IMG/VR virus record: IMGVR_UViG_3300022751_000016
Location: 62,001 to 126,000 of that record
Strand: one strand, 5' to 3'
DNA from: a virus
Length of the DNA stretch: 64,000 nucleotides
Shown: piece by piece, positions 1 through 49,831 of the stretch
How positions within the stretch are numbered: position 1 is the stretch's first letter
How the letters are laid out: every line of letters begins with the position of its first letter
Notes under the pieces: model-generated
What the model was told of the DNA's origin: nothing
Databases searched by the model: none
What the model saw: the letters and a program-made list of their open reading frames with translations, nothing else
Position numbers and translations under genes: made by a program

Positions 1-516
1 AAAGAAGGTGATTATTTTATTAATGATGATGTTATTTTAAAATGTACTGGATTTAATCAACATTATATATTATCAGAAGATAAGTATGGATTAACATATT
101 CACCAGCAGATTCTAATAAAATTATGGCTACAACAGATACTTCATTAGGATATTGGAAAGAAATAATGACTAAGGCAGGAGGAGATGAAGATACATTCTT
201 CTCTTTACCTCAGCCTTCTCAACAATTCATTACTAAATATATTGAAGAATATAATAAAGGTAATATAATTACTGATGTGTTAGTTGAGTATGATATTACT
301 TGGGTAGCTAATCATAATAATGGTTATCACTCTAAATCTTTAAAAATTAATCCTAAAGATAATACTATTAACATTAAATTAGAAGAAAAACATACTTACA
401 CTAAAGAACAGCTAATCAAAGCTATGATTTGGGCGGAAAATAATGGAAAACATTATGTAGGTACAGATAAAGAAGGACAATTAGAACAGTTTAATGAGTA
501 CATAAATAAACTTTAA
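1..516 (+). CDS. Hypothetical phage protein, 5' end cut by window
   Basis: The reading frame is open from base 1, so the ATG at 124 is internal and the true start lies outside the window. The visible 171 residues have two parts. The first, about 45 residues, is rich in Asp, Asn and Tyr. The second starts near the internal Met and has an acidic C-terminal helix (residues KEQLIKAMIWAENNG). There is no catalytic motif I recognise. The next gene starts three bases after the stop, which suggests one operon. Confidence 0.8.
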   Translation, partial: KEGDYFINDDVILKCTGFNQHYILSEDKYGLTYSPADSNKIMATTDTSLGYWKEIMTKAGGDEDTFFSLPQPSQQFITKYIEEYNKGNIITDVLVEYDITWVANHNNGYHSKSLKINPKDNTINIKLEEKHTYTKEQLIKAMIWAENNGKHYVGTDKEGQLEQFNEYINKL

Positions 517-3167: not shown

Positions 3168-3413
3168 ATGAACATTACAGCATCAATTGCCAGTAAAATC
3201 GGCGGGAAAGAAGAAGAAATAATCAATAAAAACACAGAAATTCAGTTTTACGTTAATGATAACATAAATATGTATCAATGGAGAGACAGTAGATTCGATT
3301 GGAGTAGTAATGTATGGGAAAATAAACAATGTCAAACAAGAGAAGAATTAATTGAAGCATTTAAAGAACATTTAAAATCAACAGTATTCACAGTTAAGAA
3401 ATATAAACTATAA
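3168..3413 (+). CDS. Hypothetical protein
   Basis: An 81-residue protein, first gene after the promoter at 3143. The middle is Trp- and Arg-rich (MYQWRDSRFDWSSNVWENK) and the C-terminal half is a charged helix. No recognised family. Two bases separate it from the next gene. Confidence 0.75.
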   Translation: MNITASIASKIGGKEEEIINKNTEIQFYVNDNINMYQWRDSRFDWSSNVWENKQCQTREELIEAFKEHLKSTVFTVKKYKL

Positions 3414-3968: not shown

Positions 3969-4351
3969 GAGAATTATTCATTCCATATGACGAAGCATTA
4001 GCTTTAAAAGAATTAGGATTTGATGAACCTTGTTTATGCTATTATGAAGATGATAAATTAAGGATATTTGAACAGTCTGAGTATGATGAAATTTTAGCAT
4101 ATCGTGAAAGTGATTGTATTAAAGGTATTGCTAATTGTTTTGTACCACTTTACCAACAAGCTTTTAGATTTTTTAGAGAGAAATATAAATTATTTTCATC
4201 TTTTCATTGCCCCGAATATGATATAGATACTTATGAGTATAGGATTTATAAAATAGATAACTCCGAAATAACATCAAAAGAATTTAAAACTTACGAAGAA
4301 GCAGAATTAGCTTGTCTTAGAAAATTAATATTTAAAATATTTGGAAAATAA
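3965..4351 (+). CDS. Conserved Bacteroidota-phage protein of unknown function
   Basis: A 128-residue protein. The N-terminal ALALKELGFDEPC stretch, the central PLYQQAFRFFREKY and the C-terminal TYEEAELACLRKL form a pattern I associate with a widespread small protein of Bacteroidota phages and prophages. Its function is not known. The middle region looks all-alpha. It overlaps both neighbours. Confidence 0.8.
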   Translation: MRELFIPYDEALALKELGFDEPCLCYYEDDKLRIFEQSEYDEILAYRESDCIKGIANCFVPLYQQAFRFFREKYKLFSSFHCPEYDIDTYEYRIYKIDNSEITSKEFKTYEEAELACLRKLIFKIFGK

Positions 4352-4798: not shown

Positions 4799-5104
4799 AT
4801 GAAAAAAAGTAAATATGTAGAGAGTTACTTTATAAACGAATACGAATGTGGAATATTCTGTGTAACTTTTAACTTAACAGAAAGATGGATTGGTTATCAT
4901 GCTTATTGTGAGACTCAATATATTTTTGGTGAAGACGTAGAAGACGAAACTCAAGAAGAGTGGGAATCTAGAATTCAAGATATAGAGACGTTTCTACCTA
5001 AAGAGAAAAGCTATTTACCAACTGTTATTCAGAACAAAGACCAAGTACAATTTTACTACCTTCCTTTTGAATTAATTTCTAGAGATAAAAAAGTTAAGAA
5101 ATGA
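4799..5104 (+). CDS. Hypothetical protein
   Basis: A 101-residue protein with several aromatic residues and a strongly acidic centre (EDVEDETQEEWESR). It overlaps the RNA ligase gene by four bases, so it is probably translated together with the RNA-repair genes. No recognised domain. Confidence 0.75.
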   Translation: MKKSKYVESYFINEYECGIFCVTFNLTERWIGYHAYCETQYIFGEDVEDETQEEWESRIQDIETFLPKEKSYLPTVIQNKDQVQFYYLPFELISRDKKVKK

Positions 5105-6096
5105 ACCTAAAAACATTAAAGAAATACGAACAAGATGGTCTAATATACAGCCAAGTCCACCCTAACCTACCATTAACAATTTATAACTACACAGACAAGG
5201 TTCAATGGGAAAATATTTGGGATGAAATAACTTTACAGTGTCGTGGACTTGTAGTTGACGGTAAAGGAGATATTGTAGCAAGACCATTCAAAAAGTTCTT
5301 TAATTTATCTGAAGGTAAGACAAATACAACAGACGATTATATTATTTATGAGAAATTAGATGGAAGCTTAGGAATTCTCTTCTGCTATAATGATGAATGG
5401 ATACTAGCTTCTCGCGGCTCTTTTACTTCTGAACAAGCAATTCGCGGAAAAGAAATATTAGACAAAGAGTGTGATTATAATCTGTTAGATAAAGAAAACA
5501 CATATTGTTTTGAAATAATTTACCCTGAAAATAAAATAGTTTTAGAATACAATGGACTAGAAACCTGTATTTTAACGGGAGTGTTTAATACAGCTACAGG
5601 AGAAGAGCAATCTTTAGATGGATGGGGAATGTCGCCAGTTGAGAGTTATAGCTTTAAAACACCTTTAAATGAGCTTCACAGTATTATAGAAGATAATCAA
5701 GAGGGGTATGTAGTTAGGTTTTCAAACGGCGAAAGAGGTAAAATAAAAGGAGCTGAATATTTAAGACTTCATAAGATGATGTCAGAGATGTCAACTACAG
5801 CAGTTTGGGATTGTCTAAGAAATGGTGATAGTATATTAAATTTGATTAAGGATTTTCCAGATGAGTTTTATAATACGGTCAGAGAATATGAACGATTCTT
5901 AAAAGGTGAATTTGATTATAAAGAAGAGTACATACTAATAACTTACGAAAGATTTAAAAATATAGAAGGTACAAAAGAATTTGCCTTAAGAGTTAAGGAG
6001 CACGTATTTAAACACTACTTCTTTTCTCTAAGAAACGGTAAGGATATTAAAGACCAAATTTGGAGAGCCACTAAACCGAAATATGCGCGACTATGA
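5101..6096 (+). CDS. rnlA: RNA ligase, T4 Rnl1 type
   Basis: A 331-residue ATP-dependent RNA ligase, slightly shorter than T4 RnlA. Nucleotidyltransferase motif I is YEKLDGSLGI at about residues 80-89, whose Lys forms the AMP adduct. CRGLVVD precedes it. Motif III is near CFEIIYPENKIV, motif IV is EGYVVRF and motif V is GKIKGAEYLRLHK. Such ligases rejoin tRNAs cut by host anticodon nucleases. The polynucleotide kinase gene two genes downstream provides the matching end-healing activity. It overlaps both neighbours by four bases. Confidence 0.93.
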   Translation: MNLKTLKKYEQDGLIYSQVHPNLPLTIYNYTDKVQWENIWDEITLQCRGLVVDGKGDIVARPFKKFFNLSEGKTNTTDDYIIYEKLDGSLGILFCYNDEWILASRGSFTSEQAIRGKEILDKECDYNLLDKENTYCFEIIYPENKIVLEYNGLETCILTGVFNTATGEEQSLDGWGMSPVESYSFKTPLNELHSIIEDNQEGYVVRFSNGERGKIKGAEYLRLHKMMSEMSTTAVWDCLRNGDSILNLIKDFPDEFYNTVREYERFLKGEFDYKEEYILITYERFKNIEGTKEFALRVKEHVFKHYFFSLRNGKDIKDQIWRATKPKYARL

Positions 6097-11769: not shown

Positions 11770-12848
11770 AGAAAATTAAAGAGAAACGCATAGAACAGTT
11801 TAAAACTGATTTTCCAGGATTTAAGGTATCAGAAAAAACAGGTTCTATTTATTGTAGAATAGGAGTAGTTGAATCAACAAAGCAAACTAAACATACAGGA
11901 AGAGCTGTTACAAAAAATACGTTATCTAAAATAGGACAACTTCAAGAGTGGAAAGTTTCTGTGGCTCGTTATGTTTATTTATTAACGCCAGCAGGAAGGC
12001 TTATGGTGAGTAAAAGCGGAGGTAATTTTAAATCAGTTGGACTTAAACAAGTAAGATTAGAAAACCCAGAATTACAAAATACATTTTTTATAGGTAAGAA
12101 GTATGAATGGTTAAAAGATTATCCTAATTTATATCCTTATAGACTATTTCAAGGTTTTAATTCATTAGGAGAAGTTAAGAAGTTCTTAGGTTTTTCTTTT
12201 ATATCAGACGAAGAATTTACTAAACTTTTCACAGCAGATTGGTTTGATTTTTTAACTCCTATGATTTTAGCTAAAGACAAGAAAAATGTAGTTAGGTTGT
12301 ATAAGAATTTAGAAACAGATGATAAGGACTTACTTAATGACTACATTAATTTGTGCCAAGAGCATAATATGGAAATAGAAATTCCTGCGGGTAAAAACAG
12401 ATTGGAAGAGTTACATACTCAAGCAGTTTGGGAAGTTAATAAAAAAACTGCTGAAAATTATTCTAAAGAAAAGCGGTATGAAATAAAAGAAGAGTTTACT
12501 GAAGTTTGGAAAGAACGCGGACTAAAATTCAAAAGATTAGAAACTCCTTATGAAATGTACGCTCAAGGAATAAAACAGCAACACTGTATAGGCACTAATT
12601 ATGCTAAAACTTTAAATAGGTATGCGTTCTACAGTTTTGAAGATAATGGCGAAAATTACGAAATGCAAATCTATGAGAACGGTAGTATAGGTCAATTTTA
12701 CGGTAGAAAAAATAAACAAGTTCCAAATTTCCTTAGAGAGAAAGTCACAAAAGATGTAAATTTAAAATATTCATTAATAGACATACAACCAGATTTAAAA
12801 AACTATCCAATGCTAAAGGAAGTTGAAGAAAGTATTTGGGATTTCTAA
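11763..12848 (+). CDS. PcfJ-like protein
   Basis: A 361-residue protein. The last 150 residues match the PcfJ-like family: a helix starting HTQAVWEVNKKTAENY, then PYEMYAQGIKQQHCIGTNYAK with the conserved His-Cys, and QIYENGSIGQFYGRKNK. These proteins are common in phages and conjugative elements. Their biochemical role is not settled. The N-terminal 200 residues are a basic region of their own. The gene ends just before the gene-free structured region. Confidence 0.85.
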   Translation: MLKKIKEKRIEQFKTDFPGFKVSEKTGSIYCRIGVVESTKQTKHTGRAVTKNTLSKIGQLQEWKVSVARYVYLLTPAGRLMVSKSGGNFKSVGLKQVRLENPELQNTFFIGKKYEWLKDYPNLYPYRLFQGFNSLGEVKKFLGFSFISDEEFTKLFTADWFDFLTPMILAKDKKNVVRLYKNLETDDKDLLNDYINLCQEHNMEIEIPAGKNRLEELHTQAVWEVNKKTAENYSKEKRYEIKEEFTEVWKERGLKFKRLETPYEMYAQGIKQQHCIGTNYAKTLNRYAFYSFEDNGENYEMQIYENGSIGQFYGRKNKQVPNFLREKVTKDVNLKYSLIDIQPDLKNYPMLKEVEESIWDF

Positions 12849-12879
12849 ATTTAGTAATGGTTACAGAAAAAATAACCAA

Positions 12880-12911
12880 TTTGGAAAATAGAATGATATT
12901 AAGTATATTTG
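12880..12911 (+). promoter_or_regulatory. Bacteroidota-type promoter for noncoding RNA
   Basis: The -7 element TATATTTG lies at 12904-12911, with TTTGG at 12880-12884 about 19-20 bases upstream. No ORF follows for over 800 bases, so the transcript starting near 12917 should be noncoding. Confidence 0.7.
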
Positions 12912-12916
12912 CAGGA

Positions 12917-13036
12917 CATAATAGAAATACAAGATTTAGACTCTCACCTCTAAAATCGTAAAGATAATAAGTATAAAAACTTAGGAAACTAACGGACAGG
13001 AAAGATGGGTGAGAGCTCTTTTCGTCCGTTTTTTGT
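12917..13036 (+). ncRNA. Putative small RNA with loop-complementary terminator
   Basis: Starting about six bases after the promoter, the segment has CTCTCACC at 12941-12948. It ends with a two-part terminator stem, AACGGAC 12991-12997 with GTCCGTT 13024-13030 and GGAAAGA 12999-13005 with TCTTTTC 13017-13023 (one G-U), followed by a T run. The 11-base terminator loop contains GGTGAGAG at 13008-13015, perfectly complementary to CTCTCACC. This allows an eight-pair pseudoknot or loop contact. No coding frame on the plus strand supports a gene. Confidence 0.65.
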
Positions 13037-13039
13037 TTT

Positions 13040-13720
13040 ATATGGATTCTATTTCTGCCAATTATACGTGACTTGATGTTAATATCATCGTATATCCTTC
13101 TAATTATTTTAGTCGGCGTCAAAGGGAAGAGTGAGCTATTTAATAGTTATCTACGCCTGAGTATAGGGGAGTTTTACGCATTTATGTATACCTTTATCCT
13201 GTTGGCAATTTAATTGTTGATAGAGGTCAGTTTCTCCCCACTTCACAAAGCAGATAGTTACTAAATTAAAAAGGATTTCAGAAATTCACTTCATGCGATG
13301 GAGTAAACAAAATAACTGAGGATTCTCAAAAGGAGTCTAACTCTGAGGGCTTGGGGGCTTGCCCTATATTTATCTTAATTAATTATATCGCAATTAGTAA
13401 ATTGTTTTCACTGCAAAGCTTTAGTATGTCGCCAAAACTATAGTTCGGCGGGAAAATATATAGATAAGTAAAAGCTTATAAAAATGGCGACAGAATATAC
13501 TACTTGCAGTGGATAGGTAATTAACAGTTTTGAATGTATTACTTAGTAGTTTATGTTGTGGCGGATTTATAGATGAAGATAGGAACGTATAAAACTGAAA
13601 GTATTAATTCCGCGCCACAAAAGAATATAAGTAAACAATCACAAACTGTAAAAAAACATTATATGAATTAGCGGGTATTTTAAGGGAAACTATGTTAAAT
13701 TTTAAAATTTCTCTTGTTTA
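13040..13720 (+). ncRNA. Putative large structured noncoding RNA
   Basis: No convincing gene lies here, but long helices are dense. Examples: 13138-13152 with 13252-13266 (14 of 15 pairs), enclosing GGGGAG 13166 with CTCCCC 13234 and ACCTTTATC 13190 with GATAGAGGT 13219; AGGGC 13346 with GCCCT 13361; CAATT 13391 with AATTG 13400; CACTGCAA 13409 with TTGCAGTG 13504, enclosing TAGTATGTCGCC 13422-13433 with GGCGACA 13486 and TACTA 13498; ACAGTTT 13524 with AAACTGT 13643, enclosing TTGTGGCG 13556 with CGCCACAA 13613. It could be separate from, or continuous with, the small RNA upstream. The strand is inferred from neighbours. Confidence 0.55.
13682..13720 (+). terminator. Possible terminator of the structured region
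   Basis: AAGGGAAA at 13682-13689 can pair with TTTCTCTT at 13708-13715 (one G-U) across an AT-rich loop, and a T-rich stretch follows. It comes just before the next promoter, where an end to upstream transcription would be expected. The tail is weak. Confidence 0.4.
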
Positions 13721-13743
13721 ATCATAAATAAGGTGTATATTTG
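13714..13743 (+). promoter_or_regulatory. Bacteroidota-type promoter
   Basis: The -7 element TATATTTG at 13736-13743 has TTG at 13714-13716 exactly 19 bases upstream. The first gene starts at 13767. It drives the small membrane-protein genes and probably the genes after them. Confidence 0.75.
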
Positions 13744-13766
13744 TAAAGAATTAAAAAAGTAAAATT

Positions 13767-13982
13767 ATGAAAATAGTAAATATATTGATTGCTTTTATAG
13801 TAACTGCTTCAATTTGCGCAATAGTAGATTTAATTATAAACTATGTAATGGCAAATACCGTTGAGTGGAAAGTCTTAAGTGAGCAATTGTGGAAAATACT
13901 AATAAGTATAGGTAGAATAAGTTTAGGCTATTTTTACGGAAGTATAATTTTTAAAGAGATTTTAAAACAGTTAGAGAACTGA
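13767..13982 (+). CDS. Small membrane protein, two segments
   Basis: A 71-residue protein with two hydrophobic segments (about residues 4-26 and 44-62) joined by a short polar stretch. It is the first of three consecutive small membrane proteins after one promoter. This could be a holin-like or host-membrane-modifying group. No family was recognised. Confidence 0.75.
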   Translation: MKIVNILIAFIVTASICAIVDLIINYVMANTVEWKVLSEQLWKILISIGRISLGYFYGSIIFKEILKQLEN

Positions 13983-14359: not shown

Positions 14360-14665
14360 ATGAATAAATCTTTTAAAAATAAAAGTCAAATAGCGTTAGA
14401 CGATAAACACTTCTTAATTCCAGACTCAGATTCAGGAATCATCCTTGTATTCCACGAAATTCGCCAAAGAAAAAAGAAAGACAGTGAAGAACTAGAAGAC
14501 TACGAATTCACTGACCGTTGGTATTTCACAAGAATCGTACAAAGTCTAAGAAAATACACAGAATTAACAGAGAACAGTTGTAAGACTATTGATGAAATTC
14601 TAGAAAAAGTGAAGTATAATACAGAACTTTTAGATAGGTTAGATGTTGAATTTAAACAGTTTTAA
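14360..14665 (+). CDS. Hypothetical phage protein
   Basis: A 101-residue soluble protein. An N-terminal beta-rich section (DKHFLIPDSDSGIILVFHE) is followed by charged residues, then DRWYFTRIVQSLRKYTEL and a long C-terminal helix. The layout recalls small phage proteins of unknown function. It precedes the DUF6915-like gene by three bases. Confidence 0.72.
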   Translation: MNKSFKNKSQIALDDKHFLIPDSDSGIILVFHEIRQRKKKDSEELEDYEFTDRWYFTRIVQSLRKYTELTENSCKTIDEILEKVKYNTELLDRLDVEFKQF

Positions 14666-28286: not shown

Positions 28287-28995
28287 CAACTTAGAGGTTT
28301 TTATAAAAGAATGGTTTCCTAAAACAGAAGAATGGAATAATATATCCAAGTTCATTTTAGAATCAGGGATACAAATAACAGATGATGTGAATCCTAAATG
28401 GTTAACAGGGTATACTAATATTGGTAAAAGTAGTAAGCCACATCATAAAGATGAATATACACGCTACATGGAAGAAGGCATGTTTATGCTTCACGATGTA
28501 GTTCATCAAATATTTACTTTAGATACCGAATGTTCAGAAGAGCAGTACGTTAAAAGACAAATTTATGGAGAATTATTCACTTTTTATTTAACAGAGTACG
28601 TTATTCCTAGCAGTTATGGTTTAGGAGATAAAAGAAAAGAATATATTGTTTATAATAGAGACTGTTATAATTTATTGGATTGGGTAGTATCAGAAAAACC
28701 TCGTGTTAAATACAATATTATAGATTGGATGTGGGAAGTTTTTATAGAAGATACAGATTTAAAATATATTAATAGGTTAGAAGAAGTTTATCTAGATAAA
28801 TATCGAAAAATGTTTAAAGAAGACTTGGAGAACTCAAGAAAAAATTATAAATTTGTACCTAATGGAATAAAGAATTATTGTATGGTTGGAGAGTCAAGTC
28901 AAAATCATATAGATTTCTTCTCTGCTGTTAAAAATGGCGCGATAAAAAATATAAAAAGAGATTTTAATTTAGAACTTCCTAATGAGTGGATTTAA
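28276..28995 (+). CDS. Conserved phage protein with His-Asp-x-x-His motif
   Basis: A 239-residue protein. FMLHDVVHQIFTL (about residues 73-85) with a downstream EEQYVKRQIYGELFTFYLTEYV is a pattern I recall in a phage family without known function. His, Asp and His could bind a metal as in HD-domain or other hydrolases, though the rest does not match HD. The remaining part is helical and basic. Confidence 0.72.
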   Translation: MNNNNLEVFIKEWFPKTEEWNNISKFILESGIQITDDVNPKWLTGYTNIGKSSKPHHKDEYTRYMEEGMFMLHDVVHQIFTLDTECSEEQYVKRQIYGELFTFYLTEYVIPSSYGLGDKRKEYIVYNRDCYNLLDWVVSEKPRVKYNIIDWMWEVFIEDTDLKYINRLEEVYLDKYRKMFKEDLENSRKNYKFVPNGIKNYCMVGESSQNHIDFFSAVKNGAIKNIKRDFNLELPNEWI

Positions 28996-30731: not shown

Positions 30732-32756
30732 ATGGATTTAGATAATATTTACTGTGGTGATTTGGAATCTGATAATTTAGCAGAGGATGTTACTAAAATA
30801 CACGTACTAAGTATTGCTTGGAAAAGTGATGGAGTGTGGAAAATAAAATCTACACCTAACTATGATGATATGCGAAAATTATTATCTGACCCTACAAAAG
30901 TTATTGCAATACATAATGGAATTAGATTCGATGGTAGAGTTTTAGAGCAGATACTTGGTATAGAGATAAAAGCAACTATTATTGATACACTAGCTTTAGC
31001 TTGGTACATAGATTGTGCTAGAGGTAAGGAAGGTAAAAAGTATGGTTTAGCGTACTACGGGGAAGATACTTTTAATACTCCAAAGCCAAAGATTGATGAT
31101 TGGGAGAATCTAACCTATGAAGAGTATAAATTTCGTTGTGAGGAGGATACCAAAATAACCTATCAACTTTGGGAGTATCTACTCTTAAAATTAAGAGCTG
31201 TTTATGACAACGACGAAGATATTGTCAGAGTTATAAAATACCTTAATTTTATCATGCTTTGCGCCAGAAAACAAGAAGAACAAAAGATTCAAGTTGATTT
31301 AGAAAAATTAGAAAGTAATTTAAAATATTTTGAGGCATTAAAAGAAGAAAAAATTAAACAGCTTATTGAGGCAATGCCTAAAATTCCTAACAAAATAACA
31401 AAAAACAGACCTAGTACTTATCATAAAAAAGATGGTTCTCTTTCTAAAGCTGCCGAAGAGTGGGAAAATATGCTAACTTCTTGTAACTTACCAAAAGATT
31501 ATAGTGGAAGTATAGATGTCATAAAATCTTATGAATTAGGAAACCCAAACTCAGTGAAACAAAAAAAAGATTGGTTGTATAGCTTAGGTTGGATTCCTCA
31601 AACATTTGTGCACAATAGAGACAAGCAGACAGGAGATGTAAAGAAAGTGGAACAAATACTTACAGAAGAGAAAATGCTTTGCCCAAGCGTCTTAAAACTA
31701 GTTGAAAAAGAACCTGCAATTGAATTGCTAGATGGACTTTCAGTTCTTACCCATAGAATTGGAATATTTAAGGGATTGCAGAAAGCAGTTGATAAAAATG
31801 GATTTGTTATACAAGGTTTAATGCAGTTGGCGGTAAGTCTTCGCTGGCAACACGCCCTGATTGTAAACTATCCTCGCGTTACAGGTAAAGGAGACATCAG
31901 GGATGGTAAATGGATTAGGGAGTGTCTAATAGCTGGGAAAGGTTATAAATTTGTACAGAGTGACCTTAGTGGAATTGAATCAAGGACATCCGACCACTAC
32001 ACGTTCAATCTGAATAGAGAACTAATCGAAGAAACGCAGAGACCATTTTTTGACCCACACACAAAAATTTCTGTTGTTAGTAACTTAATGACGGAAGATG
32101 AAGAAATATGGTTTAAGTGGAAGAAGGAGAATAAAGAGAGGAAAGAAAAGGGGATAGAAGAGGACTTACCTCCTGAAGCTTTTGGGACACCCTCAGATAA
32201 TTTTTACATACTCCAAGATTTAGATAAGGATGAAAGTAAGAAGTTAATGAACAGATTAAAAGAGGCTAGGAGTAAAGGAAAGACTTGTAACTACGCATCA
32301 CTCTACTTAGTTGGCAGTCAGACACTTGCTAGAAATTTAAACATTTCTAAGAAAGAAGCACAAGGACTAATAGATGCATATTGGAAAATTCATTGGGCAG
32401 TAAAAAAAGCTACGGAAAGTTTTGACATAAAAAAAGTAGGGGATGAGCTCTGGATATTAAATCCTATATCGAGATTCAGACATAATTTGCGTTTTGAAAA
32501 GGACTCCTTCTCGGTTGTAAACCAGTCGAGTGCAGTTTATTGCTTTAACATGTGGCTATATAACATAACTAGACTTGGAGCTTTTCCCATATTGCAGACC
32601 CATGATGACGAATTACTAAGATGTAAGGAAGAAGAAGTTGATAAGTACGTAGCTATAACCAATAAGGCAATGGAAAACTTGAATAAGCAGTTAAAGTTAA
32701 ATGTAGAATTAGCTTGTGAGGTACAAGTTGGTGATAACTTTGCAGAGACACACTAA
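30732..32756 (+). CDS. DNA polymerase, family A
   Basis: A 674-residue DNA polymerase. The N-terminal part (about residues 1-170) is a 3'-5' exonuclease: GDLESDN, AIHNGIRFDGRVL and FRCEEDTKITYQLW. The polymerase part has motif A FVQSDLSGIESR (about residues 412-423), motif B GKTCNYASLYLVG (about residues 516-528) and motif C LQTHDDELL (about residues 621-629). It is the likely main replicative enzyme, working with the DnaB-like helicase at 22222. No internal intein or intron is seen. Confidence 0.95.
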   Translation: MDLDNIYCGDLESDNLAEDVTKIHVLSIAWKSDGVWKIKSTPNYDDMRKLLSDPTKVIAIHNGIRFDGRVLEQILGIEIKATIIDTLALAWYIDCARGKEGKKYGLAYYGEDTFNTPKPKIDDWENLTYEEYKFRCEEDTKITYQLWEYLLLKLRAVYDNDEDIVRVIKYLNFIMLCARKQEEQKIQVDLEKLESNLKYFEALKEEKIKQLIEAMPKIPNKITKNRPSTYHKKDGSLSKAAEEWENMLTSCNLPKDYSGSIDVIKSYELGNPNSVKQKKDWLYSLGWIPQTFVHNRDKQTGDVKKVEQILTEEKMLCPSVLKLVEKEPAIELLDGLSVLTHRIGIFKGLQKAVDKNGFVIQGLMQLAVSLRWQHALIVNYPRVTGKGDIRDGKWIRECLIAGKGYKFVQSDLSGIESRTSDHYTFNLNRELIEETQRPFFDPHTKISVVSNLMTEDEEIWFKWKKENKERKEKGIEEDLPPEAFGTPSDNFYILQDLDKDESKKLMNRLKEARSKGKTCNYASLYLVGSQTLARNLNISKKEAQGLIDAYWKIHWAVKKATESFDIKKVGDELWILNPISRFRHNLRFEKDSFSVVNQSSAVYCFNMWLYNITRLGAFPILQTHDDELLRCKEEEVDKYVAITNKAMENLNKQLKLNVELACEVQVGDNFAETH

Positions 32757-32934: not shown

Positions 32935-33978
32935 ATGGAAATAACAAACCAACAAAAACAAGTATTACTAAGCGGTCTTTTAGGAGATGGAAGTATTAAA
33001 AGGTCACATGTGTCTTACAACTGTATGTATGAAGAATATATGCAATTTAAAAGAAGTTTACTAGGAAATTTAGCCAAATCAGAGGTTATTGAATCGGATA
33101 ATTTAGGTTACAAAAAAGGTTCTAAAATTTACACTTTTTCTGGTAAATTTAATTCATATGCAGATTCTCTAGTTAATAAAGATTTATCTGAAATGATTCA
33201 AGACTTAGATGAATTGGGACTGGCTCTCTGGGTTATGGATGATGGCTCACTTCACAAGAAGAATTATTTCTACAATATCAACACACATTCGTTTCCAAAA
33301 GAAGTTCAGGAAAAAGTATTAATTCCCGCCTTAAATAAATTTGGAATATATCCTAAAACAATGGTTGAAAATAAACCTGATGGAAGACAGTTTCATTATT
33401 TGTATATTTCAAAATGGAATGGTGCAATGATTATTTCTCGAATACTTAGAAACTATGCTGTAAATTGTTATAAATACAAACTCATACCTAAAGAAATTGA
33501 AGACGCTTACTTTAAACTAGATTTAGAAGTTTTCAATGCACTACCAACAGAGTATGCAAAAACAAGTTATTTATTAAAACAGAACGGAGTTCGACAAATG
33601 AGTGATTTACTAATGAATAATACAAAAGGTAAAGAGTACACTTACGAAGAATTAGACGAGTTATGGAATAAAACTTTTCCAAAAACAGATTGTGTCTTTT
33701 CTATATATGATTTTAAGAAAACAAAAGAAGGTGAGGATGAAAATGTCTTAATACCACAAGTTAATTTTTTAGATGAAAATCCTATTGTTAAGGGGTCTTT
33801 TAAATTGTCTTTTAACACTTGGAAATATGGTGAAACTTTTTATTCTATCGAGGGAAGGTCACTTACTTGGAAAACGCTTCTAGATATTATAGATAAACAT
33901 GGAGATGGACATCACATATTTTTAGAATTAATTGAAATTAAGAATAACAACGAAGTGTTTGTATTTTTAGGCAGTTAG
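32935..33978 (+). CDS. LAGLIDADG homing endonuclease
   Basis: A 347-residue protein with two LAGLIDADG motifs, LLSGLLGDGSI (about residues 11-21) and LALWVMDDGSL (about residues 95-105), supplying catalytic acidic residues. Residues 1-200 cover the nuclease core; the last 130 residues form an extra domain of unknown family. It is free-standing between polymerase and terminator and is not inside an intein or a clear intron. It probably cuts a site in related phages lacking it, perhaps at the polymerase gene. Confidence 0.88.
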   Translation: MEITNQQKQVLLSGLLGDGSIKRSHVSYNCMYEEYMQFKRSLLGNLAKSEVIESDNLGYKKGSKIYTFSGKFNSYADSLVNKDLSEMIQDLDELGLALWVMDDGSLHKKNYFYNINTHSFPKEVQEKVLIPALNKFGIYPKTMVENKPDGRQFHYLYISKWNGAMIISRILRNYAVNCYKYKLIPKEIEDAYFKLDLEVFNALPTEYAKTSYLLKQNGVRQMSDLLMNNTKGKEYTYEELDELWNKTFPKTDCVFSIYDFKKTKEGEDENVLIPQVNFLDENPIVKGSFKLSFNTWKYGETFYSIEGRSLTWKTLLDIIDKHGDGHHIFLELIEIKNNNEVFVFLGS

Positions 33979-47605: not shown

Positions 47606-48345
47606 TAGTCTGTGATTTCTATTTTATAGTTATACATTGCGTGATGACATTCTATGGAAATTAAAGTTTTCCACTCGTCCGCTACTTCTTTTATATACTT
47701 TTCTTTTGCTGTTTTATAAGCTTGAAATGCCTCCTCTGGGGTGTTAAAACGTCCTAAATCTACATATTCTTCTTTCTTATGAAACCTCGCTTTGTATTTT
47801 TTATCTGCCTTAGTAACTCCAATTGGGTATTTTCCTCGAACCTTGTTACTTTTTACAAACAAAGAGTTTATTTCGTGAGGTACAAAGCAACATGTTTCCT
47901 GAGAATAAAAAATATTCCCTTTGACAAAAATGTCTTTATCTAATTCCCATCCTTGCATATAAGGTTTCCAATTATCTTCATACCACTTAGCAAAATTCTG
48001 AAAACATTTCCAGTCTTCAATAACAAAACAATTTTTATAAGTTTGGTAATTTTTCTGATACTTGTCACTATAACTCCTTTGTAATATGCCAGCCCACTTT
48101 TTGTATATTTCAGGATGTGTTTTGTTTGTATATTTACCAACCCCTAAATAACCAACTCCGTACACAGAAGGATGATTGGGATTTTTTACAACTCCCTCTT
48201 TAATGTGCCCATATTGAATATTTTTTAATATTACTCCATCTTCAAATTGTACAGCACAGTTGTTGCATCCAAAGTATTCAATGATTTCCATTTTGAGACC
48301 TTGCTTGTTAATATACACCTTTCCTACTTTGTTGTTATATCTCAT
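47605..48345 (-). CDS. AP2-domain homing endonuclease-like protein
   Basis: A 246-residue protein. The centre has KKWAGILQRSYSDKYQKNYQ and GWELDKDIFVKGNIFYSQET; the end has PIGVTKADKKYKARFHKKEE, LGRFNTPEEAFQAYKTAKE, an AP2-like DNA-binding domain (about residues 175-235). Phage homing endonucleases of this type often have a degenerate HNH core. It lies inside the NAD operon, overlapping the NAMPT gene by 11 bases. It is probably an inserted selfish gene. Confidence 0.78.
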   Translation of the reverse strand: MRYNNKVGKVYINKQGLKMEIIEYFGCNNCAVQFEDGVILKNIQYGHIKEGVVKNPNHPSVYGVGYLGVGKYTNKTHPEIYKKWAGILQRSYSDKYQKNYQTYKNCFVIEDWKCFQNFAKWYEDNWKPYMQGWELDKDIFVKGNIFYSQETCCFVPHEINSLFVKSNKVRGKYPIGVTKADKKYKARFHKKEEYVDLGRFNTPEEAFQAYKTAKEKYIKEVADEWKTLISIECHHAMYNYKIEITD

Positions 48346-49831
48346 TGATTCTTTGTCTTATTAAACTGAGTGTTGTTTGATTGTAGTAGTTGCCGTCCTT
48401 AAATCTAACTTTTAGTTGGTTTTCTTCTGATGATAATTCTTCTAAACTCGCTTGGTCTTTCAAATAATACTCCCCATTTTCATCTTTAAACACTACTGTT
48501 AAACCTTTTGCTGATTTTTTAATTCCGTCGTCAGTTACGGGGTCTTTCATAATTTCAACTAATTCTCCATTTCTTTGTTGTGCAATACATTTCAAAGCCA
48601 TTCCCCAAGTATCTCTTGTTACCATTTGCATAGAGAAACTACCTTGACCGAAGAAGCAGTTACTTGCTGCAAAACTTTTAGCTTCTAGGCGCGAAAAGAT
48701 TTCTTTAATATTATTTTGGTTAATTGCCTCACCATAAATCATTCCTATGTGAGAATCTAAAACTTTAAAACCTTCTTCGTTAACTGTTCCGCCGAAAACG
48801 TCCCAAAGAAGTTCAATTACACCTTTGTTTTTTGGCGAAATGGTTACAGGTTGTGAATAAGCTTTATTTGTTTTATAATTAATAGGTTCTCCACAAATAA
48901 TATCTACAGGATTTCCTGAATCAGGTCGAATAACTAATTTACCATCACGAGCCATAATAATATCTTTCAATTTAGGCAAGTAATCTGTTAAAACTCTCCA
49001 CAAATCAAAACTGTCTGATACTAGTGACATGATTCCTGTTGGAAACTTAGTAAGCAGATTTTCATATATTTCAAATTCTCCTTCGATTCCACCCGCTGTC
49101 ATTTGGCTGTGCTCTGAAGCTCTCACACTAAATACAGGCGTAGATGTTTCATCATAATAATGCTGAGAAGCTTTTATTACTGGTAAACTGTCAGAACCCA
49201 TAGATACAGAAGCAAAAGCTAATCCTGAACCAATCGCCGCATCTAAGCCTGTTAAACCACGCATAGAGAAATCATGTAACATAAAATCAACAGCTCCAAC
49301 ATTATCTTTATCTGTTTTTAACACTGCCTCTTTAACTATTCTCTTCATTAAGAGTACATTAGTTGCTGTTGTTAATGGTTGCCACAGTAAATTACTTAGA
49401 ATAGTTTCAATGTAATTAGTAACCCAAGCAAATCTAATGTCAGTGTTGTATAAAAATAACACAGGAATTTTAATAGCAGATTCTGTCCCTTCATCTAAAG
49501 TTCTAATCTCTAAAGGTAAATATCCTAAATCATGCAGTTCTTCAATATGTTTTGTATCGTAATCTACGTCCAAATAAGCTGAAAAATTAGTTTTTACATC
49601 ATTAATAATATCTTCTTTTCGAATGTTAAAAAAGTTTTCATTAAAATGCTCCACTATAAAACGGATTGCATATTGGTGTCCAAAATTTAATACTTTACCA
49701 TTATTACCTTTTGGTGCGTATTTATTACTTCGCGGAGTAAAATTACTGTACACGATTTCTGTACCGTCTTGATACATTTCAAAGTGGGAAATTTTATATC
49801 CATCTACTAAAAACATACTATTCATTCTCAT
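48335..49831 (-). CDS. Nicotinamide phosphoribosyltransferase-like enzyme (NAMPT or Namat)
   Basis: A 498-residue protein, full length for NAMPT. FLVDGYKISHFEMYQDGTE, MLHDFSMRGLTGLDAA, VRASEHSQMTAGG (active-site His), LVIRPDSGNPVDI (Arg and Asp for the sugar), FGQGSFSMQM and RDTWGMALKC are all present. The standard reaction joins nicotinamide and PRPP to NMN. Phage homologues in NARP1 (Namat) instead join nicotinamide and ADP-ribose pyrophosphate to NAD+. It is the first gene of an operon; the start could be Met1 or Met3. Confidence 0.94.
   Translation of the reverse strand: MRMNSMFLVDGYKISHFEMYQDGTEIVYSNFTPRSNKYAPKGNNGKVLNFGHQYAIRFIVEHFNENFFNIRKEDIINDVKTNFSAYLDVDYDTKHIEELHDLGYLPLEIRTLDEGTESAIKIPVLFLYNTDIRFAWVTNYIETILSNLLWQPLTTATNVLLMKRIVKEAVLKTDKDNVGAVDFMLHDFSMRGLTGLDAAIGSGLAFASVSMGSDSLPVIKASQHYYDETSTPVFSVRASEHSQMTAGGIEGEFEIYENLLTKFPTGIMSLVSDSFDLWRVLTDYLPKLKDIIMARDGKLVIRPDSGNPVDIICGEPINYKTNKAYSQPVTISPKNKGVIELLWDVFGGTVNEEGFKVLDSHIGMIYGEAINQNNIKEIFSRLEAKSFAASNCFFGQGSFSMQMVTRDTWGMALKCIAQQRNGELVEIMKDPVTDDGIKKSAKGLTVVFKDENGEYYLKDQASLEELSSEENQLKVRFKDGNYYNQTTLSLIRQRINEI

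Follow-up and report, generated by a model that had tools for sequence, protein, structure and literature searches.

A covarying pseudoknot leader heads a probable large noncoding RNA in a phage with a likely Bacteroidota host

What occupies the largest gene-free gap in this stretch of phage DNA, and is it transcribed into a structured RNA? The 64,000 nucleotides analysed here (the window) span 62001-126000 in a viral record of 142,450 bases and have a coding fraction of 0.89; the gap in question (12849-13766, 918 nt) includes the segment 13040-13720, in which an earlier note had seen a gene-free stretch unusually rich in helices and a candidate for a new structured phage RNA in the manner of GOLLD and ROOL. 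To our knowledge, only few classes of such large phage RNAs exist, and none has a known function. The absence of genes was borne out. The interval 13036-13766 contains no frame of 60 aa or more, remaining frames there being of at most 46 aa, and one minus-strand frame with a TTG start, which overlaps the upstream gene, extends into this interval. ARAGORN detected 0 tRNA or tmRNA genes in the window. When annotated phages were searched with the gap by BLASTN, chance matches alone resulted, and the PcfJ-like gene upstream, common to L005-L007, was dropped as a lead because the RNA does not follow it there. Elsewhere, the window carries a LAGLIDADG homing endonuclease gene (32935-33978) immediately following that for DNA polymerase (30732-32756), and genes for a T4-type RNA ligase (5101-6096) and a nicotinamide phosphoribosyltransferase (48335-49831), a pair suggestive of RNA repair and NAD salvage.

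BLASTN of the whole gap against related viral records placed the conserved part at 12903-12976, upstream of the segment previously singled out. The best-supported structured element of the locus, missed in the earlier note, is a leader of the H-type pseudoknot form (type A, 12941-13035, plus strand), composed of P1 (12941-12947/13009-13015), an internal hairpin P2 (12968-12972/12979-12983) and P3 (12992-12998/13023-13029), with a U-run (13030-13034) directly 3' of P3. Exact-motif and similarity searches yielded five copies (the window, L066, L049, L008 and L041), equivalent to about four independent sequences since the leaders of L008 and L041 are nearly identical; exact-motif scans returned no type A leaders beyond these five, further matches lying in unrelated sequence or lacking the pseudoknot. 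The unpaired loop TCTAAAATCGT (UCUAAAAUCGU, 12949-12959) is identical in 5 of 5 copies, an invariance that is partly by construction in that one search pattern included the loop, and UCUAAAAUCGU is a candidate ligand or protein site.

As judged by sequence comparison, the leader pseudoknot is shown by covariation. Across the five copies, P1 occurs as CUCUCAC/GUGAGAG, CCAUCAC/GUGAUGG and CCUUCAC/GUGAAGG, P2 as UAAGU/ACUUA, UAAGG/CCUUA and UAAGA/UCUUA, and P3 as ACGGACA/CGUCCGU (6 of 7 pairs), ACGGAUA/UAUCCGU and ACUAAUA with either UAUUAGU or UGUUAGU. Standard pairs fill 98.9% of the base-pair cells (19 pairs, five copies), against 34-41% with slid partners, a control quoted because MAFFT misaligned the short helices and the alignments of both this leader and the core described below were built manually and padded with N, which favours the structure. 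Two-sided changes occur at 6 of the 19 pairs and in all three helices (12 two-sided cells), and 0 of 500 shuffles had a covariation score as high, for a structure derived from the same sequences as those tested. The plus strand is taken as the RNA strand, since the U-G cells of P3 would read as C-A mismatches if the minus strand were the RNA. A covariance model of the leader (R1) scores 83 bits at 12941-13035 (E 1.5e-15), the window being one of its training rows; neither R1 nor a second model, R2, found a match among 396 genomes sampled from a single bacterial phylum, in searches with strict filters under which few candidates were scored.

Transcription of this leader is predicted from a Bacteroidota-type promoter, TTTG-N20-TATATTTG (12880-12911, plus strand), a consensus match from which the transcript would be expected to start at ~12918; the consensus has only 6 matches on the plus strand across 64 kb. 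The motif TATATTTA also precedes the leader in L008, L041 and L049, with the promoter at the matching distance there as in the window. Beside the promoter lies an inverted repeat, GGTTACAGAAAAAATAACC (12859-12877, plus strand), which recurs in the phage genome, with BLAST copies in G000 at 380-430 (minus strand), 28481-28538 (plus) and 129106-129128 (minus), and also in L040; it would represent an operator-like element, as for a phage regulator. As the promoters of the window (TTTG/TTG-N19-20-TATATTTG) resemble the Bacteroidota type, the phage host is likely a member of the Bacteroidota.

What follows the leader differs between relatives. In L049, L008 and L041 it heads a gene-free noncoding stretch of ~600-750 nt, and in L066 it lies ~20 nt upstream of the ATG of a 288-aa gene, whose ribosome-binding site it does not cover. 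The order in L066 is leader, 288-aa gene, HNH-like gene and then a protein 53% identical to that encoded at 14360-14665 of the window; by this common downstream protein the two loci are syntenic, and the window has a gene-free body where L066 has the 288-aa and HNH-like genes. Decayed copies of these L066 ORFs were considered and rejected, as tblastn with the proteins from the L066 site revealed no remnant in the window gap, and 13040-13720 thus holds neither an adequate ORF nor a match to these proteins. Given that the leader precedes both coding and noncoding transcripts, transcription or the stability of the RNA would be a more likely point of action for it than translation, and its occurrence before large phage RNAs and one protein gene suggests an exchangeable control module. 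The L066 arrangement may also be read to mean that the whole stretch is a long 5' leader regulating the downstream operon (13767 onwards) in cis, the same leader standing directly before a gene in L066 and a downstream gene being common to the window. However, the next gene (13767-13982) has a separate promoter-like site of its own, TTG-N19-TATATTTG (13714-13743, plus strand, a consensus match only), so that the gap is not simply the leader of that gene, and a spacer of ~700 nt is long for a leader; we consider this explanation quite improbable.

The RNAs of L049, L008 and L041 are members of a class of large phage RNAs that Rfam does not contain. A weak match in the crAss-like phage cr118_1, itself counted with the class, led to a search pattern that matches 38 viral stretches, and class loci comprise L049, L071 and L269-L305 (e.g. 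L290, 8020-8266). The class core, described by the models R2 and R3, is a four-way junction with helices P1-P5 and the motifs AGAAGUCGGG / CCCCGAUAG. In 22 hand-aligned sequences, 98.9% of its cells pair, against 36-45% with slid partners, with 204 two-sided cells; the invariance of helix P4 stems from the search pattern, in which it was fixed. Compact forms extend over ~245-315 nt between P1 and the 3' motif, and the RNA is often found between opposite-strand genes and a plus-strand gene block, and in some cases (L279, L302) next to tRNA arrays. The relevant Rfam families gave no match at any class locus tested, and no description of the class was found in the literature searched, a body of work that leaves subscription papers mostly outside. 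One member, L273, also carries a tmRNA (4036-4282, tag DNSYADALIVPENSTSYVSQEVEILELVYA) ~2.5 kb from the RNA core.

Homologues of the L049 body are present in G001 (locus L257), G002, G006 (locus L259) and G007. In L257 and L259 the 3' part is almost unchanged relative to relatives, and is preceded by a different 5' pseudoknot (type B, unrelated-looking to type A; ~1130-1290 in L257 and ~1150-1310 in L259, reverse-complement coordinates) and then a U-run. As read by eye, the type B pseudoknot pairs UUCGUAG/CUACGAA with ACUCCUGU/ACAGGAGU in L257, and GUAACGG/CCGUUAC with AAACCCUA/UAGGGUUU in L259. A type B pseudoknot on the same RNA body suggests module exchange. Downstream of the RNA in L259 (~3180-3305, reverse-complement coordinates) lies a tRNA-like sequence, GGTTCGAATCC, uncalled by ARAGORN, which may be interrupted or degenerate.

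Might the unit at 12918-13700 then belong to the four-way-junction class as a highly divergent member, its leader and body forming one trans-acting RNA? It has the same leader and the same kind of noncoding stretch downstream as L049, L008 and L041; the middle and 5' domains of the class are demonstrably replaceable; and model R3 recognises L257, a locus outside its training set (E 3e-4). There are also local resemblances, AUAUCGC followed by a CAAUU/AAUUG hairpin (~13386-13405) as in L275, and AAGGGAAACUAUG (~13682-13694), similar to the 3' motif of the class, AAGGGGAUnnCUAUG; these are of the size expected by chance and, with the likeness to UAUAGGGGAG/CUCCCC, were set aside as evidence of class. 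Against membership, the core went undetected by R2 and R3 in the window, whether filters were on or off, and elsewhere in the phage record, a negative that is weak because the models also miss the relative L259 (R3) and find L041 only marginally (R3, E 0.044). We give this reading a fairly low probability.

The body itself, 13040-13720, has no homologue among the related viral records searched. The helices named in the earlier note are all present, and those within 13400-13650 form part of the minimum free energy (MFE) fold. This fold pairs 13407-13416 with 13504-13513 and 13427-13434 with 13485-13492 in a first branched stem-loop (13407-13513, plus strand), which also has 13422-13426/13498-13502 and two small inner hairpins, and 13524-13530 with 13643-13649 and 13556-13563 with 13613-13620 in a second (13524-13649, plus strand), which also has 13539-13545/13628-13634. 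Compared with dinucleotide shuffles, the first folds at z = -3.9 (0 of 300 shuffles as good) and the second at z = -3.4 (1 of 300). The gene-free interval 13040-13399 upstream (plus strand) would serve the putative RNA as a linker or form its 5' body, with a possible GGGGAG/CUCCCC pairing and a possible helix 13138-13152/13252-13266 (as read from the sequence, 14 of 15 pairs, 2 of these G-U); no homologue of it was found. Helix arms had been described as GC-rich, a point not upheld at the level of the region, which is not markedly so (GC 0.323, against 0.305 in the window); GGCG/CGCC words, as in the helix arms, are over-represented genome-wide. The longer words GGCGAAA/TTTCGCC occur 13 times in the window against 2.7 expected, scattered through genes, and are found in relatives as well; they could be a primase or recombination signal.

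The density of helices had been thought beyond chance for the segment as a whole, and this holds for a part of it: on the plus strand, 13400-13650 folds at z = -4.1 with no shuffle equally good, whereas the entire 13040-13720 reaches z = -0.45 (30 of 100 shuffles equally good) and 13040-13400 z = +0.72, no better than shuffles. The whole-region energy on the plus strand is what would be expected of chance hairpins in a decayed intergenic region, but the fold of 13400-13650 is unmatched by any shuffle, the leader covaries and no gene remnants are present, making such an origin very improbable. The minus strand also folds exceptionally (z about -3.1 for 13040-13720 and -4.9 for 13400-13650), which means that the arms of 13400-13650 are good inverted repeats on either strand. 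The leader alone could thus be an RNA element, followed at 13040-13720 by a DNA element with inverted repeats such as a replication origin or a recombination or protein-binding site: minus-strand folding of the arms is similar or better, the largest helices are nearly all Watson-Crick, GGCG/CGCC words abound throughout the genome, and the RNA of some relatives lies near a replicative helicase gene. Yet leader and promoter point into the region, the equivalent region in L008, L041 and L049 is an RNA of a covarying class, and a simple DNA site would not usually contain branched stem-loops interrupted by bulges; we regard a DNA element as unlikely. By its context and the exceptional fold of 13400-13650, rather than by covariation, 13040-13720 is probably an RNA body.

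The earlier note could place the RNA with neither GOLLD nor ROOL, and indeed no relevant Rfam family matches: GOLLD and ROOL are absent at the gathering score in the window, at E <= 10 in 12840-13770, and in the relatives, and the same holds in the window and in 12840-13770 for known riboswitches, group I/II introns and RNase P. Only two eukaryotic families appear at E <= 10 in 12840-13770, at chance level. The RNA is accordingly not filed under either name, the models not matching. GOLLD is a large (>800 nt) phage-encoded RNA with a conserved 3' and a variable 5' region, often near tRNA genes (PMC12286853). The relatives L049, L257 and L259 likewise have a conserved 3' and a variable 5' part, and some class relatives (L279, L302) are near tRNA genes, but no similarity of sequence or structure to GOLLD was detected, and the present RNAs have an exchangeable 5' pseudoknot and U-run. 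A homo-oligomeric cage is a further hallmark of GOLLD. ROOL is a phage RNA of ~600 nt with pseudoknots and of unknown function (PMC12286853). It is alike in size and in being a phage RNA with pseudoknots, and differs in that neither an Rfam match nor sequence similarity was found. The claim of a new structured phage RNA thus stands on other ground than the helices first named: a structured phage RNA outside Rfam is well supported by the comparative evidence of covariation in the leader, at 12941-13035.

How might the leader work? H-type pseudoknot riboswitches (SAM-II, preQ1-II and similar) have interlocked P1 and P3, invariant loop nucleotides and a U-rich strand after P3. The leader resembles them in its interlocked P1 and P3, its invariant loop, its place at the 5' end of the transcript and its U-rich sequence after P3, and departs from them in its length of ~95 nt, its extra P2 hairpin, the lack of an Rfam match and its occurrence also before noncoding RNAs. 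The antitermination RNAs HK022 put and EAR are structured RNAs that open phage or operon transcripts and act on RNA polymerase whatever follows. By analogy, the leader, also at the transcript start, would act on RNA polymerase regardless of what lies downstream; it is a pseudoknot and theirs are simple hairpins, and antitermination by the leader is putative. Intrinsic terminators do not typically have a loop as long as the one within P3, and L049 has a short U-run (CUUUUG).

A large structured RNA is likely made from the gene-free stretch, and our preferred reading, to which we give a probability of roughly 0.5, is that a promoter drives a large noncoding RNA headed by a pseudoknot leader, the leader acting on transcription and the RNA body in trans. 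The plus strand from ~12918 to ~13700 would be one noncoding transcription unit with its own promoter, its transcript beginning with the pseudoknot module and continuing into a structured body whose clearest domains would be 13407-13513 and 13524-13649. The pseudoknot, when formed, or when held by a small molecule or by a phage or host protein, would act in cis on transcription, and its state would decide whether polymerase stops at the U-run (giving a product of ~115 nt) or reads through; the action is placed at transcription because the same module stands before the protein gene of L066, with its ribosome-binding site uncovered, and before the noncoding RNAs of L008, L041 and L049. The downstream RNA would then act in trans as a large phage RNA in the style of GOLLD and ROOL. 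Transcription, attenuation, ligand or protein sensing and the role of the body are what we infer from the sequences.

It is tempting to go further and to propose, tentatively, that Bacteroidota phages, crAss-like ones included, have an undescribed modular family of large RNAs in which exchangeable 5' pseudoknots control and stand before noncoding bodies, many of these built on a four-way-junction core, or before protein genes, the RNA of the window possibly adding a third kind of body to the family. If so, this would be a widespread class absent from Rfam and present in crAss-like phage, and its swappable 5' pseudoknot would offer a handle on function. A pseudoknot common to mRNAs and noncoding RNAs would lend itself to simple assays of termination or of a reporter, and RNA-seq data of gut viromes could be searched for the class.
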